Source: Aureimonas phyllosphaerae (lineage in GTDB: Bacteria; Pseudomonadota; Alphaproteobacteria; Rhizobiales; Rhizobiaceae). Taken from it: a DNA stretch of 64,000 nt. Where the stretch lies: contig NZ_FOOA01000010.1 in the NCBI RefSeq assembly GCF_900113065.1, positions 62,001-126,000 on the forward strand, given 5' to 3'. Below the pieces are notes generated by a model. That model ran no database searches and was not told where the DNA came from. It saw only the letters and a program-made list of their open reading frames with translations. The position numbers and the translations under genes were made by a program. This document shows positions 8,291 through 50,334 of the stretch, piece after piece (positions within the stretch are counted from its first letter, which is position 1; every line of letters starts with the position of its first letter).

Positions 8291-8782
8291 CTAGCAGAGG
8301 CTTTCGATGTCCTCGTCGGTGAGCGTCGCCGGCACGATCGTGACCGGGACCGGGAAGGCCGAGCCCGAGCCCGCCACGGCCGAGACCAGCGGCCCCGGCC
8401 CTTCCGCGGCGTCGCTCGCAGCCAATACCAGGATCGCGATCTCGCGGTCGGCCTCGATCAGGCCGCGGATTTCCGCCACCGTCTTGCCCTCACGCACCAG
8501 CGTCTCGGGTTCGATGCCGACCGCCTCGCGCACCTCGTCGGTCACCCGCGCCATGCGCGTTTCCGCCTCTTCCATTGCCTCGGCGCGCATGATGTCGCCG
8601 ACCCCCAGCCATTGCTGGAAGTCCGCGCCGTCGATCACATACAGGAACACGACCGCGCCGCCTGACGCCTTGGCGCGCCGCGCCGCATAGGCGGCGGCAC
8701 GCCCGCATTCGGGCGTCTCGTCGATGACGGCCAAGAACTTGCGGCGGCCGCCTTCGCCGCGCCCGAGTCGCTTCGATACCAT
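8291..8782 (-). CDS. Universal stress protein (UspA family)
   Basis: 163 aa, one Usp domain beginning KFLAVIDETPECGRAAAYAARRA and containing the family's VREGKTVAEIRGLIEADREIAILVLAAS segment. The usual C-terminal ATP loop (G-2X-G-9X-G-S/T) is represented by GPGPLVSAVAGSGSAFPVPVTIVP, so nucleotide binding is possible but not certain. It converges with the kinase gene, with 3 bases between the stops, and reads in the same direction as trpS. A structured 175-base repeat separates it from trpS. Confidence 0.88.
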   Translation of the reverse strand: MVSKRLGRGEGGRRKFLAVIDETPECGRAAAYAARRAKASGGAVVFLYVIDGADFQQWLGVGDIMRAEAMEEAETRMARVTDEVREAVGIEPETLVREGKTVAEIRGLIEADREIAILVLAASDAAEGPGPLVSAVAGSGSAFPVPVTIVPATLTDEDIESLC

Positions 8783-8835
8783 GGCCGGACCATGACAGCG
8801 CCGCGCCGGGGCGGCAAGCGGGTGGGGGTGGTCAT

Positions 8836-9010
8836 GGGGCTCCGCCCCAAACCCCGCCAGGGGAAATGATTTCCCCTGGACCCCTCCTCATTTGAGGCGT
8901 GTCCATGATGGGGAAGGGCCGGTGGCCCTTCCCCATCATGGAAATGGTCCCAAACGAAAAGAAGGGTTCGGGAATTCTTTCCCGAGCGGGGACCGGGGCG
9001 GCAGCCCCGC
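8836..9010 (-). repeat. Structured 175-base intergenic repeat, copy A
   Basis: Starts 7 bases after the trpS stop when read leftward. It contains several hairpins, including a perfect 18-base-pair stem with a 3-base loop at 8903-8941, CCAGGGGAAA pairing with TTTCCCCTGG (8858-8879, with flanking mismatch), and CGGGAA/TTCCCG around 8970-8984. Copy B at 47021-47195 has the same length with 13 substitutions and no indels. It is not protein coding on either strand as far as I can tell. Possible roles are a 3' RNA-processing or termination element, or a mobile palindromic repeat. Confidence 0.85.
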
Positions 9011-9017
9011 AACCACC

Positions 9018-10085
9018 CTACCCGTTCAGCAGCCCGACGATGGACTTGACGTCGCCGAGCGTGCGGCTGGCGATGGCGCGGGCGCGCTCCGCGCCGTCGC
9101 GCAGGGTCCGGTCGATCTCGGCGGGATCGTCGAGGATGCGGCGCATCTCGGTCGCGATCGGCGCGAGCTTGGCGACCGCGAGGTCGGCCAGGGCCGGCTT
9201 GAACTCGGAGAACGGGCGGCCGCCGTATTCGCCGAGGATGTCGGCCTTCGAGCGGTTGTCGAGCGCGGCGAAGATGCCGACGAGGTTGTCGGCCTCGGGG
9301 CGCCCGGCGAGGCCCGCGGTCTCGGAGGGCAGCGCGTCCGGATCGGTCTTCGCCTTGCGGATCTTGCGCGCGATCGTCTCGGCGTCGTCCGTCAGGTTGA
9401 TGCGGCTGAGGTCGGACGGGTCGGACTTCGACATCTTCTTCGAGCCGTCCTTGAAGCTCATGACACGCGTCGCCGGCCCCTCGATCAGGGGATCGGTCAT
9501 CGGGAAGTAGCCCTGCACGGTCTCGTCCCCCATCGCGATTGGGTGCCCGAGGCCCTTGCCCGCGATGCGGTCAGAGTAGTCGTGGTTGAACTTGGCGGCG
9601 ATGTCGCGCGTCAGCTCCAGATGCTGCTTCTGGTCCTCGCCGACCGGCACCAGCGTCGCACGATAGGCGAGGATGTCGGCGGCCATCAGGCTCGGATAGG
9701 CGAAGAGGCCGAGCGAGGCGCGCTCGCGGTCCTTGCCGGCCTTCTCCTTGAACTGCGTCATGCGCTCCATCCAGCCGAGGCGGGCGACGCAGTTGAAGAT
9801 CCAGGCGAGCTCGGCATGCTCGGGCACCCGGCTCTGGTTGAAGAGGATGTGCTTCTTCGGGTCGATGCCGCTCGCGATGAAGGCGGCGGCCACCTCGCGA
9901 ATCGAGCGCTCCAGTTCCTCCGGCTCCTGGAACACCGTGATCGCATGGAGATCGACCACGCAGAACAGGCAGGGGTATTCGTCCTGCAGCGCGACCCAGC
10001 GCCGGATCGCGCCGAGATAGTTGCCGAGATGCAGGTTTCCGGTCGGCTGGACGCCGGAGAACACGAGCGGCTGGAACGCGGCCAT
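9018..10085 (-). CDS. trpS: TrpS, tryptophanyl-tRNA synthetase
   Basis: Class I aminoacyl-tRNA synthetase, 355 aa, charging tRNA-Trp in the cytoplasm. The HIGH motif appears as HLGN (19-22, in [13 protein letters not shown]) and the KMSKS loop is exact at 217-221. [16 protein letters not shown] is the tryptophanyl-specific region. Length matches the bacterial family. It reads left; usp lies downstream beyond the structured repeat, and a divergent DUF3597 gene lies upstream, inserted between trpS and murJ, which are direct neighbours in many rhizobia. Confidence 0.97.
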
Positions 10086-46250: not shown

Positions 46251-47021
46251 GTGAACGCCCGCATCATTCCCGCCCGCCTGCCCCGCGCCCCGAAGCCGAA
46301 GACCGCGATGATTCTCGCCGCGGGTCTCGGCAAGCGCATGCGCCCGATCACCTCGACCATCCCGAAGCCGCTGGTCGAGATTCGCGGCAAGGCGCTGATC
46401 GACTACGGCCTCGACGCGCTCGCCCGCAACGGCGTCGAGCGCGTCGTCGTCAACGTCCACTACATGGCCGACCTGATGCGCGCGCACCTGCGCAAGCGCC
46501 GCGACATGGAGGTGCTGGTCTCCGACGAGAGCGACAAGCTGCTTGAATCGGGCGGCGGCATCGTGCGCGCCCTGCCGCTGATCGGCGACGATCCGTTCTA
46601 TCTCATCAATTCCGACACGTTCTGGATCGACGGCTACCGCGACAACCTCGACCTCCTCGCCGATCTCTGGAATCCCGACGAGGCCGATATGTCGCTCCTC
46701 ATCGCCGAGATGCGGCAGGCCACCGGCTACGAGGGGCGCGGCGACTTTACCATGGATCGCGAAGGACGCCTGCGCCGCGTCGCCGAGCGGGACATGAGCC
46801 CCTTCATCTATGCCGGCGCCGGCATCCTGAAGCCCGACCTCTTCCGCGACCTGCCGGAGGAGACCTTCTCGCTCAATCGCGTCTTCGACCGATCCATCGA
46901 GGCCGAGCGCCTCTTCGGCGTGCGCCTCGACGGGCTCTGGATCACCGTCGGCACCCCCCGCGCCATCGCCGAGGCCGAGGCCGCCTTCACCGCCAGCGCG
47001 ACGCGGGCCGAGCGGGCGTAG
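46251..47021 (+). CDS. murU: MurU-like sugar-1-phosphate nucleotidyltransferase
   Basis: 256 aa. Nucleotidyltransferase fold with the pyrophosphorylase signature LAAGLGKRMRPITSTIPKPLVEI (about 21-43) and metal-binding Asp in LINSDTFW. With the AmgK-type kinase just upstream (9-base gap) it should turn MurNAc-1-P into UDP-MurNAc, bypassing de novo synthesis and the fosfomycin target MurA, as shown for Pseudomonas AmgK/MurU; specificity here is inferred. GTG start. Its stop codon overlaps the beginning of structured repeat copy B. Confidence 0.88.
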   Translation: MNARIIPARLPRAPKPKTAMILAAGLGKRMRPITSTIPKPLVEIRGKALIDYGLDALARNGVERVVVNVHYMADLMRAHLRKRRDMEVLVSDESDKLLESGGGIVRALPLIGDDPFYLINSDTFWIDGYRDNLDLLADLWNPDEADMSLLIAEMRQATGYEGRGDFTMDREGRLRRVAERDMSPFIYAGAGILKPDLFRDLPEETFSLNRVFDRSIEAERLFGVRLDGLWITVGTPRAIAEAEAAFTASATRAERA

Positions 47022-47195
47022 CGGGGCTGCCGCCCCGATCCCCGCTCGGGAAAGAATTCCCGAACCCTTCTTTTCGTTTGGGACCATTTCCGAGATGGGG
47101 AAGGGCCAGCGGCCCTTCCCCATCTCGGACACGTTTCAAATGAAGAGGGGTCCAGGGGAAATCATTTCCCCTGGCGGGGTGCGGGGTGGAACCCC
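47021..47195 (+). repeat. Structured 175-base intergenic repeat, copy B
   Basis: Begins at the last base of the murU stop. Perfect 18-base-pair stem with a 3-base loop at 47090-47128, a GGGAAA/TTTCCC-type stem near 47156-47174 and smaller hairpins. Aligned to the reverse complement of 8836-9010 it has 13 substitutions and no gaps. Relative to the upstream gene it has the same orientation and nearly the same distance from the stop as copy A. Confidence 0.85.
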
Positions 47196-47223: not shown

Positions 47224-50200
47224 ATGCCCTCGCATGTCTTTTCCATAGCCCCTGCCCTGCCGTTCCTGCCGACGCTGGCGCGCGGCGTGCTGGATGGGCG
47301 TTTCCTGCCCGGCGAGGACTTTACCGCCGATCCCCTGGCGCTCGCCGGACTGACCATCCTGGTGCCGACGCGCCGCGCGGCGCGCTCCCTGGCGGGCGAG
47401 TTCGCGCGGGCGATGGGCGGTGGATCGGCGATCCTGCCCTCGATCCGCACGCTGGCGGAAGCCGACGAGGGCGCGGCCTTCGTCGATCTCGGCGAGACGC
47501 TGGCGCCGGCGATGGACCCGTTGGAGCGGCACCTCCTGCTCGCGCGTCTCGTGCGCTTCTGGAAGGACGGGCTGAACCGGCAGGCTTTGCGCCTTCTCGC
47601 GAACGAGGAGATCGTGCTGCCGGCCTCGGCGGCGGACGCCCTCTATTCGGCCGAGGACCTCTGCGCCTTTCTGGACGAGGCGGTGACGGAAGAGGCGGGC
47701 CTGCACAAGCTGACAGGCCTTGCGCCCGATCGCCTCGCCGAATGGTGGCAGCTGACGCTGACCTTCCTGTCGATCCTGTCGGAGCAGTGGCCGGCGATCC
47801 TGAAGGAGCGCGGGGTCGAGGACCGCGCGAGCTTGCGCCGCCGCTGGTTTGACGCGGAAGCGGAGCGGCTCCAAGCCAGCGGCTCGCGCGGGCCGATCCT
47901 CGTCGCGGGCTCGACGGCGACGGCGCCCTCGACGCTGCGCTTCCTGCGCGCGGTGGCGGGGCTGCCGAACGGCGCGGTGATCCTGCCGGGCGTCGATTGC
48001 CATCTCGACGAAAAGAGCTTCGATGCGATCGATCGCTCCCGCTCCATCGCGGCGCCGGGCCACCCGCAGCATGCCCTGAAGCGCATCCTGCAGGGGCTTC
48101 TGGTGGAGCGCGAGGGCATCGAGCTCCTGTGTCCCGACCGGGGCCATCCGCTTCTGGCGCGTGAGAAGTTCCTGTCCGACGCGCTGCGCCCGGCCGAAAC
48201 CACCGACGCCTGGTCCGATGCCGATCGCCTGCATGGCGGCGAGGCGCTGGACGGGCTTGAGCTGATCGAGGCGGCGGACGAGCGCGAGGAGGCGCTGGCG
48301 ATCGCCGTGGCGATCCGCAACGCGCTGACCGACCCGTCCGCGACCGTCGCGCTGACGACGCCCGACCGCAACCTTGCCCGGCGCGTGTCGGCCGAGCTCG
48401 AGCGTTTCGGCGTCGCCGCCAACGATTCCGCCGGCCGCCCGCTGCACGCGACGCCGCCGGGCACCTTCTGCCTGCTCGCGCTGTCGGTCGCGTTGGAGCC
48501 GGGCGACCCGATCACCCTCCTGTCGCTCTTGAAGCACCCGCTCCTGCGGCTCGGGCTCGCACCGGCGCGCGCACGCGAGGCGGCACGCACGATCGAGCTG
48601 ATCGCGCTGCGCGGCGGCTGCGGCGTCGCGGACGGAGCGAGGCTCGCGAAGCTCTTTGCCGAACGTCGCAAGGCCGCGGAGGCCGAGGACGGCCGTGCCC
48701 CGCGCCCAGTGCAGCTCGTGCCGGTCGAGGACCGCGACGCCGCGCAGGCGCTCGCCGAACGGCTGGAGGCGGCGCTCCAGCCCCTGTCCGACCTGCGCGA
48801 CGGGGGCGAGCAGGAGCTCGCCGACTACGCCGTCTGCCTGACGCGCGTTCTGGAAGCGCTGGCGGCAGGCGAGGACGGCGCGCCGACGGCCCTCTATGCC
48901 GAAGAGGCGGGCGCGGCCTTGCGCGACATGCTGCGCGCCTTCGTGGCCGCGCCGGAAACCGGCTTCGCCTTCCGCGCGCCCGAGTTGCCCGACGTGGCGC
49001 TGGCGCTGATGCGCTCGATCAACGTGCGGCCGCGCGGTGGGCTGTCGCAGCGCGTCTTCATCTGGGGCGCGCTGGAGGCGCGGCTGCAGAGTGTCGACGT
49101 GATGATCCTCGGCGGGCTGAACGAGGGCACATGGCCCGGCACGGCGCGCTCCGACGCCTTCCTGTCGCGCATCATGCGTTCGGAGATCGAGCTCGATCCG
49201 CCGGAGCGCCGCATCGGCCTTGCGGCCCACGACATCTGGATGGCGCTCGGCGCCTGCCGCGTCGTGATGGCGCGCTCGCACCGCGCCGGCGGCGCGCCGG
49301 CCATCCCCTCGCGCTGGCTCCAGCGCATCCTGACGCTGGCGGGACCGGACGGTGCGAGCGCCCTGCGCACCCGCGGCGAGACCTACCTCCACCATGCGCG
49401 CCGGCTCGACGAGCGGGCGGAGGAGCCGCGCGCGCCGCGGCCGGAACCCAAGCCCCCGATGGACCGGCGGCCGATCCGCCATTCCTTCACCGAGGTCGAG
49501 ACGCTGGTGCGCGACCCCTATGCGGTCTACGCCCGCCGCGTCCTGCGGCTCGATCCCCTGCCCGAGATGATCCGCGCCCCAGGCGCGCCGGAGCGCGGCG
49601 ACCTCTACCACGCGATTCTCCGCCGCTTCGTGGACGACGGCATCGATCCGGATGCCGAGGACGCACGGGCGCGGCTCCTCGCCATCGCGCGCGCGGCCTT
49701 CGACGATGCCGCCCTGCCGCCCGAGATCGAGGCCGTCTGGTGGCCGCGCATGGAGACGCTGGCGACCAACATGATCGCCTGGGAGCGCGAACGCGCGCCG
49801 GACGTCGCCGAGCGCCTGACCGAGGTGAAGGGCGCCTTCGACCTGCCCGGGATCGGCGTCGGTTTCCATGGCTATGCCGACCGCATCGACCGGATGCGCG
49901 ACGGCTCGGTGGAGATCATCGACTACAAGACCGGCACCACGCCGTCGGTAAAGCAGGCGCGCACGCTCCTCAGCCCGCAGCTTCCGCTGGAAGGCGCGAT
50001 GGCGCGGCTCGGCGGCTTTGAAAAGCTCGGCCCGGCGTCCTCCGTGCGCGACCTCCTCTACGTGCGCCTGCGCGAGCGCGACTTCTACGAGGAACGCCTC
50101 GCGCACAACGGCGGCCGAACGGGCGAGCCGCAGTCGGGCGACGACCTGTCGGATGCCGCGCTCGGTGCCTTCCGGGGCTTGGCGGCCGCCTATCGCAACC

Positions 50201-50334
50201 CGGAGAAGGGCTATCTGTCGCGCGCCCGCCCCTTCCAGGCCGGAGACTTCTCGGGCCCCTACGACCATCTGGCCCGGGCGCGGGAATGGACGGCGGCGGG
50301 TGCCGGCGCCGCAGACGAGGACGCAGCGGAATGA
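47224..50334 (+). CDS. addB: AddB, double-strand-break repair helicase/nuclease subunit
   Basis: 1036 aa. With AddA it forms the helicase-nuclease that resects DNA ends for RecA. The C-terminal PD-(D/E)XK nuclease has the active-site motif IIDYKTGTTPSV (Asp900, Lys902). The N-terminal helicase-like part begins LTILVPTRRAARSLAGEF where other AddB proteins have a P-loop, and the iron-sulfur cysteines of firmicute AddB are not evident, as in other alphaproteobacterial AddB. ATG 47224; earlier in-frame triplets fall inside the repeat element. Overlaps addA by 4 bases. Confidence 0.93.
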   Translation: MPSHVFSIAPALPFLPTLARGVLDGRFLPGEDFTADPLALAGLTILVPTRRAARSLAGEFARAMGGGSAILPSIRTLAEADEGAAFVDLGETLAPAMDPLERHLLLARLVRFWKDGLNRQALRLLANEEIVLPASAADALYSAEDLCAFLDEAVTEEAGLHKLTGLAPDRLAEWWQLTLTFLSILSEQWPAILKERGVEDRASLRRRWFDAEAERLQASGSRGPILVAGSTATAPSTLRFLRAVAGLPNGAVILPGVDCHLDEKSFDAIDRSRSIAAPGHPQHALKRILQGLLVEREGIELLCPDRGHPLLAREKFLSDALRPAETTDAWSDADRLHGGEALDGLELIEAADEREEALAIAVAIRNALTDPSATVALTTPDRNLARRVSAELERFGVAANDSAGRPLHATPPGTFCLLALSVALEPGDPITLLSLLKHPLLRLGLAPARAREAARTIELIALRGGCGVADGARLAKLFAERRKAAEAEDGRAPRPVQLVPVEDRDAAQALAERLEAALQPLSDLRDGGEQELADYAVCLTRVLEALAAGEDGAPTALYAEEAGAALRDMLRAFVAAPETGFAFRAPELPDVALALMRSINVRPRGGLSQRVFIWGALEARLQSVDVMILGGLNEGTWPGTARSDAFLSRIMRSEIELDPPERRIGLAAHDIWMALGACRVVMARSHRAGGAPAIPSRWLQRILTLAGPDGASALRTRGETYLHHARRLDERAEEPRAPRPEPKPPMDRRPIRHSFTEVETLVRDPYAVYARRVLRLDPLPEMIRAPGAPERGDLYHAILRRFVDDGIDPDAEDARARLLAIARAAFDDAALPPEIEAVWWPRMETLATNMIAWERERAPDVAERLTEVKGAFDLPGIGVGFHGYADRIDRMRDGSVEIIDYKTGTTPSVKQARTLLSPQLPLEGAMARLGGFEKLGPASSVRDLLYVRLRERDFYEERLAHNGGRTGEPQSGDDLSDAALGAFRGLAAAYRNPEKGYLSRARPFQAGDFSGPYDHLARAREWTAAGAGAADEDAAE

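Follow-up and report, generated by a model that had tools for sequence, protein, structure and literature searches.

A clade-restricted palindromic element of Aureimonas that lies in both orientations at conserved loci and may keep its pairing at the DNA level

Introduction

The ERIC/IRU elements of Enterobacteria are long imperfect palindromes that occur in multiple copies between genes, often near gene ends. When base changes in such a fold compensate each other, they are usually taken as proof of a selected RNA fold. If a stem is under selection as RNA, G-U pairs on the transcribed strand can be tolerated, whereas A-C pairs cannot.

Shorter repeats have also been described. The accessible part of PMC2817692 presents BIMEs as palindromic intergenic repeats of alternating orientation, and that of PMC3733652 gives REP-type repeats a length of 20–40 bp and a high copy number. 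According to the available portion of PMC8604942, template switching makes the two arms of an inverted repeat alike and can invert the spacer between them, which is mostly short. The corresponding portion of PMC8794818 proposes that template switching creates and keeps RNA hairpins, while calling its role in maintaining short stems "less clear" and the evidence circumstantial. Here we describe two copies of a palindromic element in a 64-kb stretch of Aureimonas DNA (the window, meaning the whole stretch analysed) and the relatives of these copies across the genus.

Structure of the element

Copy A lies on the minus strand at 8836..9010, between trpS and a UspA-like gene, and copy B on the plus strand at 47021..47195, with its first base serving as the final base of the upstream gene's stop codon. 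From sequence resemblance, we take the neighbours of copy A to be trpS, encoding tryptophanyl-tRNA synthetase, upstream (9018..10085, minus strand) and a UspA-like gene downstream (8291..8782, minus strand). On the same basis, copy B presumably sits between a nucleotidyltransferase gene upstream (46251..47021, plus strand) and an addB-like gene downstream (47224..50334, plus strand; start inferred from element-less orthologs). All 21 genus genomes contain a match to trpS and one to the nucleotidyltransferase gene. Realignment of the two copies reproduced the gapless 175-base pair with 13 differences of the preliminary description.

The element consists of HP1, HP2, a central 19-bp hairpin, HP4 and HP5, and its right half repeats the left in inverted, diverged form. 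In copy A, as placed by the fold and the family alignment on the minus strand, the outer hairpin HP1 (CGGGGC-TGCC-GCCCCG, 8994..9009) is followed by HP2 (TCGGGAA-AGAA-TTCCCGA, then ACCCTTCTTTT; 8968..8985) and by the left arm of a long-range helix (8951..8967), which pairs with a right arm at 8880..8894. Between these arms stands the central hairpin, with a 19-bp stem and a 3-nt loop (8902..8942). HP4 (CCAGGGGAAA-TCA-TTTCCCCTGG, 8857..8879), the opposite-half counterpart of HP2, and the outer hairpin HP5 (GGGGC-GGA-GCCCC, 8836..8848) complete the element. The same parts occur on the plus strand in copy B: HP1 (47022..47037), HP2 with a T-rich tail (47046..47063), the long-range helix (left arm 47064..47080, right arm 47137..47151), the central hairpin (47089..47129; 19-bp stem, 3-nt loop), HP4 (47152..47174) and HP5 (47183..47195). 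Copies from this genome match their own reverse complement at 71–73%, so each copy is built from two diverged modules in inverted orientation, with the central hairpin between them. Measured against shuffles, the window copies gave z = -9.2 for the DNA fold and z = -11.6 for the RNA fold.

Among the matches listed, the element has a median length of 170 (5–95% range 148–177) and is mostly 150–180 bp long. The sequence of the central hairpin is hypervariable between copies with its pairing retained, and the 19-bp length and 3-nt loop are nearly invariant, even where the internal loop is shortened. Some copies (L116, L151-L154, L164, L035 and L036) have the flanks of the central stem swapped, with GTCC...GGAAA for TTTCC...GGACA, as if the central hairpin alone might have inverted relative to the arms.

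Some of the differences between copies A and B are paired. In the central stem, element positions 72/106 change from A-T to G-C and 73/105 from T-A to A-T; these are the two adjacent paired changes noted in the preliminary description, although the stem had been given there as 18 bp. The C-G to T-A change reported for the GGGGC-GGA-GCCCC stem was confirmed at 167/171. A CCTCA-AA-TGAGG hairpin (positions 114–125) fared less well. Its paired changes are present (C-G to T-A at 115/124, alongside a change to T-G at 114/125), but the hairpin is absent from the family consensus fold, in which the element's left arm is the partner of the hairpin's right arm. Its five pairs form in 22–34 of the 39–47 countable copies among 49 aligned, and since they form in just part of the copies, less weight can be given to its two paired changes.

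Distribution in Aureimonas

Of the 21 Aureimonas genomes searched with blastn and a covariance model (R2), 14 contain the element; the genomes are mostly drafts, and one is a metagenome bin. Of 52 copies extracted at that stage, 49 went into R2, with a 53rd sitting at a locus edge; an earlier model, R1, had a poorer structure and was left out of the searches. The 14 genomes carry at least 129 copies, with 4–17 per genome among the matches listed. In a family-wide sample of 101 genomes searched with R2 under stricter filters, two were positive, both of them Aureimonas, and none of the 99 others. The covariance-model search of this genome and its relatives, which had been proposed at the outset, thereby confined the element to one Aureimonas branch in the genomes sampled. 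An exact scan of 84,980 species genomes with a 27-base pattern returned 26 stretches, all from Aureimonas.

The nucleotidyltransferase of the seven element-less genus genomes is 70–75% identical to that of the window, compared with 82–100% in element-bearing genomes. An unrooted hslV tree also splits the two groups, with a support of 0.92. TrpS identity fails to separate them (73–81% in element-less and 79–100% in element-bearing genomes).

The element had not been recognised as a named family, and this still holds: no Rfam family reached its gathering score in the window, and a literature search that reached few subscription journals found no name for such a repeat in Aureimonas or other alphaproteobacteria. 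The main text of PMC12306157, to the extent available, contained no match to genus search terms.

Covariation and wobble pairs

When 49 copies were aligned with MAFFT without regard to structure, 95.8% of cells were paired, and 28 of 65 pairs showed changes on both sides. Cells changed on both sides numbered 279, compared with 76.5 in shuffles, which ignore relatedness, and at most 72 in slid structures. The covariation, for which the preliminary description had called for a statistical test, is family-wide and exceeds both shuffles and slid partners. That description had also considered that many copies might exist whose substitutions break the stems; many copies were found, yet their substitutions keep the stems. 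In the central stem, 2173 of 2261 pairs are Watson-Crick, with 107 distinct forms in 119 readable copies among the matches listed; the other 10 of the 129 listed copies were omitted from this count because they were truncated (4) or carried a stem shift (6). All four pair types occur at stem positions 10–17 from the loop. Compensated differences lie next to each other more often than expected (3565 versus 2377, in pairs that are not independent).

One explanation is that the fold is selected in transcripts, with the element serving as a structured RNA or 3'-end element in the manner of a two-way terminator, an RNase barrier or an mRNA stabiliser. We regard this as rather unlikely, in part because the central stem shows no preference for G-T on either the element or the sense strand. 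On the element strand of 119 copies it contains 30 G-T and 41 A-C pairs; read in the sense direction of tandem genes, it contains 20 and 18, and between convergent genes 5 and 7. With G-T about as frequent as A-C, pairing in this stem looks strand-symmetric.

The other helices gave mixed counts. With a mechanical placement of the helices, possible in up to 123 copies, HP2 had 5 G-T and 28 A-C pairs, which argues against selection in RNA, and HP4 had 16 and 6, which argues for it; the counts were 3 and 5 for HP1 and 2 and 6 for HP5. In the 49-copy alignment, G-T and A-C pairs numbered 0 and 1 in HP2, 6 and 6 in HP4, and 9 and 7 in HP5. The long-range helix in the same alignment had 111 G-T and 21 A-C pairs, which favours an RNA fold. 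However, a single fixed column accounts for 47 of the 111, and conservation of the T-rich left arm would produce such an excess as well. We do not take it as proof of RNA, although the element may have an RNA role.

Gene context and constraint

The placement of the element among genes also bears on selection in transcripts. A simple context caller left 40 of the 129 listed copies ambiguous; the 89 clearly called contexts comprise 35 convergent, 49 tandem and 5 divergent, and the element typically lies 5–30 nt past a stop codon. This placement is as expected of a 3'-end element, as is the terminator-like HP2 with its T-rich tail, which gave one match in each window copy and, in copy A, is the sole terminator-like site found in 8750-9060. 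On the other side, orientation relative to the genes is near random. The commonest locus, occupied in all 14 genomes (by a shortened copy in G018), lies between divergent genes that we take from sequence resemblance to be hslV and hisB, where there is no gene end. In addition, locus B looks like an operon junction. The divergent hslV–hisB locus and the operon-like locus B together argue against a single simple terminator role.

Given a central stem without wobble bias and a near-random orientation, selection for an RNA fold is unsupported in that stem. The preliminary description had offered two readings of the paired changes, a selected fold or an element that is copied and repaired while its strand is folded. 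While the covariation itself is real, the second of these readings fits better with the matched arms, the flips in place and the exchange between copies described below.

Ortholog pairs that look unreplaced differ little within the element. Copy A and its ortholog in G002, which are 99% alike, have 2 differences in 183 positions, compared with 10% at neighbouring 4-fold sites. Corresponding values are 0/162 against 12–14% for L013/L145, 5/163 against 9–12% for L013/L139, 5/163 against 11–15% for L139/L145, 9/184 against 14% for L004/L028 and 20/216 against 18% for L138/L143. Copy B in G010, with its centre replaced, differs at 25/181 (14%) against 10.5%. The element is thus about threefold or more below 4-fold divergence in 5 of 7 ortholog pairs, a contrast that is biased by the choice of pairs mostly for looking unreplaced and that also speaks for a structured RNA. 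That unreplaced copies have diverged so little hints that the element may also do something, and a function as symmetric DNA or as a transcript-end structure is weakly supported.

Orientation and exchange

Flanking DNA grouped the 129 listed copies into 31 clusters, two of which split, so that there are about 33 loci; 29 of these have two or more copies. Among the matches listed, 17 of the 29 multi-copy loci carry the element in one orientation in some species and in the other in others; one well-sampled locus, with 11 copies, is never flipped. In eight close genome pairs, orthologous copies of 145 nt or more share their orientation in 31 cases and are flipped in 25, counts that are not independent since some of the eight pairs share a genome. 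Copy A has the same orientation in G000 and G002 and is flipped in G010, where its centre differs; copy B lies alike in G010 and flipped in G002. The clearest flipped orthologs are L008/L140, L082/L131 and L151/L162, and several flipped orthologs have distinctive centres in common. A block of about 8.5 kb between two elements (L221/L222) is inverted in G018 relative to G000 and is bounded by the elements.

Copies have also been exchanged. The nearest relative among the 129 listed copies is an ortholog for 36, a copy in the same genome for 41 and a copy at another locus elsewhere for 52, and the mean distance is 0.297 within genomes and 0.363 between them. For distances between orthologs, copies shorter than 145 nt were excluded. 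Flipped orthologs are 0.298 apart (140 pairs), compared with 0.349 for non-orthologs; orthologs lying alike, at 0.329 (196 pairs) compared with 0.357, are hardly closer than non-orthologs, so replacement blurs the distinction between inversion and exchange. That a locus can carry either orientation and that copies are exchanged are both observed directly, and template switching or homologous recombination may have been the cause.

These flips could instead be the work of a putative dedicated recombinase that inverts the elements as switches. We consider such site-specific inversion highly improbable. It would account for the near-even orientation among three species that differ by 9–18% at 4-fold sites, for the conserved outer hairpins and for the tandem contexts, which divide 24 to 25 by orientation. 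However, flips are often accompanied by a changed centre and by changed bases just outside the element, unlike the clean product of a recombinase, and a scan limited to sigma-70-like promoters found none in the two window copies.

The flanks of the element are more complementary than random (11.8 versus 8.1). We considered flank inverted repeats as the cause of flipping and rejected them, as they do not predict which loci flip (p = 0.37). At L008/L140, where G000 and G010 differ in orientation, both convergent stop codons differ together (TAG/TAA versus TGA/TGA); they are parts of the inverted repeat that flanks the flipped element. Inversion of the 3-nt loop was seen in 39 of 353 near-identical stem pairs, compared with 29.2 expected, which is not significant (p = 0.10). 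Among unreplaced ortholog pairs whose stems differ, the two closest are L001/L024 and L004/L028; their stem differences are one-sided, so the copying step itself has gone uncaught.

Entry and decay

Genomes outside the branch have no element at the sites orthologous to loci A and B. The genes at locus B are about 5–12 nt apart in six of the seven element-less genomes (G003 was unreadable). One arm or degenerate copies are left there in G004, G006 and G020, and spacers judged by eye to be unrelated occur in G009, G013, G016 and G019. In G013 (L207), a different palindromic repeat, GGAGCATTTCC ... GGAAATGCT, replaces the element at this locus; we take it to be of a kind found in rhizobia. At locus A, all that G004 retains is an outer hairpin, while the spacers of G006, G008, G009 and G020 are short. 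One G010 copy (L191) has lost its centre. Together, the remnants, short spacers and lost centre make the element look like an old insertion that is decaying by internal deletion. In the element-less branch, the hslV–hisB spacers (L260, L262 and L263) contain a native inverted repeat, GCAAACCGG ... GGTTTGG or AGTTTG. This repeat sits roughly where the other branch has its element, and the element may therefore have entered a pre-existing palindrome.

The absence of the element from loci A and B outside the branch would also suit a still active MITE whose copies re-enter the same hot spots either way round, moved by a putative enzyme. Clade restriction agrees with this, as do the many loci occupied, among the matches listed, only in G001 and G011, and independent hits on a preferred site would yield random orientation. 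Even so, we find ongoing movement decidedly unlikely. A search for the Y1 transposase (PF01797), the only type covered, was negative in all 21 genomes, while controls were positive in 5 of 14; on this ground we also rejected a REP driven by a RAYT. We could read no target duplication at the sites examined and found no recent clean empty site; the singleton L113 was tried, and the neighbourhood on its other side lacked conserved synteny. The distinctive centres that several flipped orthologs share likewise argue against independent insertion. A plasmid or phage origin was considered and rejected, as the element had no match in phage or plasmid records and its pattern no exact match in viral contigs, which also weighs against a mobile MITE.

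Discussion

We think it somewhat probable that the element is a clade-restricted, ERIC-like palindrome that is now mostly stationary and is kept palindromic, flipped and exchanged through DNA template switching or recombination. The element would have entered intergenic spacers in an ancestor of one Aureimonas branch and, as its orthologous loci and its absence from two loci outside the branch show, has since been inherited mainly at fixed positions. Pairing may be upheld at the DNA level, with a strand folding back during replication so that one arm templates the other. A mutation in a single arm would then be either erased or copied to the partner arm, which could give rise to compensatory changes without selection on RNA. 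The same template switching, or recombination between the inverted arms, could turn the entire element around at its locus, and central hairpins would be swapped when copies exchange sequence; such replacement is observed, and the enzymes involved are conjectural. A bolder version, which we judge unlikely, is that the several to over a dozen palindromes of each genome invert in living populations and rewrite the fixed-length 19-bp hairpin by hairpin-templated DNA synthesis. The family would then record template switching across the genome, and a dedicated enzyme and regulation of the adjacent genes might be involved.

With at least 129 copies at about 33 loci, overwhelming covariation and a main stem without wobble preference, the family suggests that copying of DNA can mimic what counts as proof of an RNA fold. 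Its replicate loci, two orientations and measurable distances between species make it a natural test case for template switching. It also calls for caution in covariation-based RNA discovery, where G-U should be compared with A-C and orientation checked before an RNA is claimed.

Compared with known systems, the Aureimonas element resembles ERIC/IRU in being a long imperfect palindrome that is intergenic and present in multiple copies, a likeness of description rather than of sequence; it differs in its host clade, its hypervariable centre and its flips of orientation at conserved loci. It is palindromic and intergenic like REP, BIME and REPIN sequences, but at about 150–180 bp, with several hairpins and 4–17 copies per genome among the matches listed, it is unlike REP or the REPIN-RAYT system. 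With intrinsic terminators it shares a hairpin and a T-rich tail after stop codons, whereas a few bases separate its stem from the T tract, one locus lies between divergent genes and orientation is near random. As in the template-switching quasipalindromes of the accessible parts of PMC8604942 and PMC8794818, it has matched arms and multi-base paired changes, and its arms appear to have been homogenised in the same way, seen here as an outcome rather than as an event. Its whole-element flips may parallel the inverted spacers described there, but the spacers in PMC8604942 are short and here about 175 bp would flip. The cases in those parts involve a few bases in yeast genes and rRNA loops, whereas the Aureimonas units are about 175 bp long and occupy many loci.
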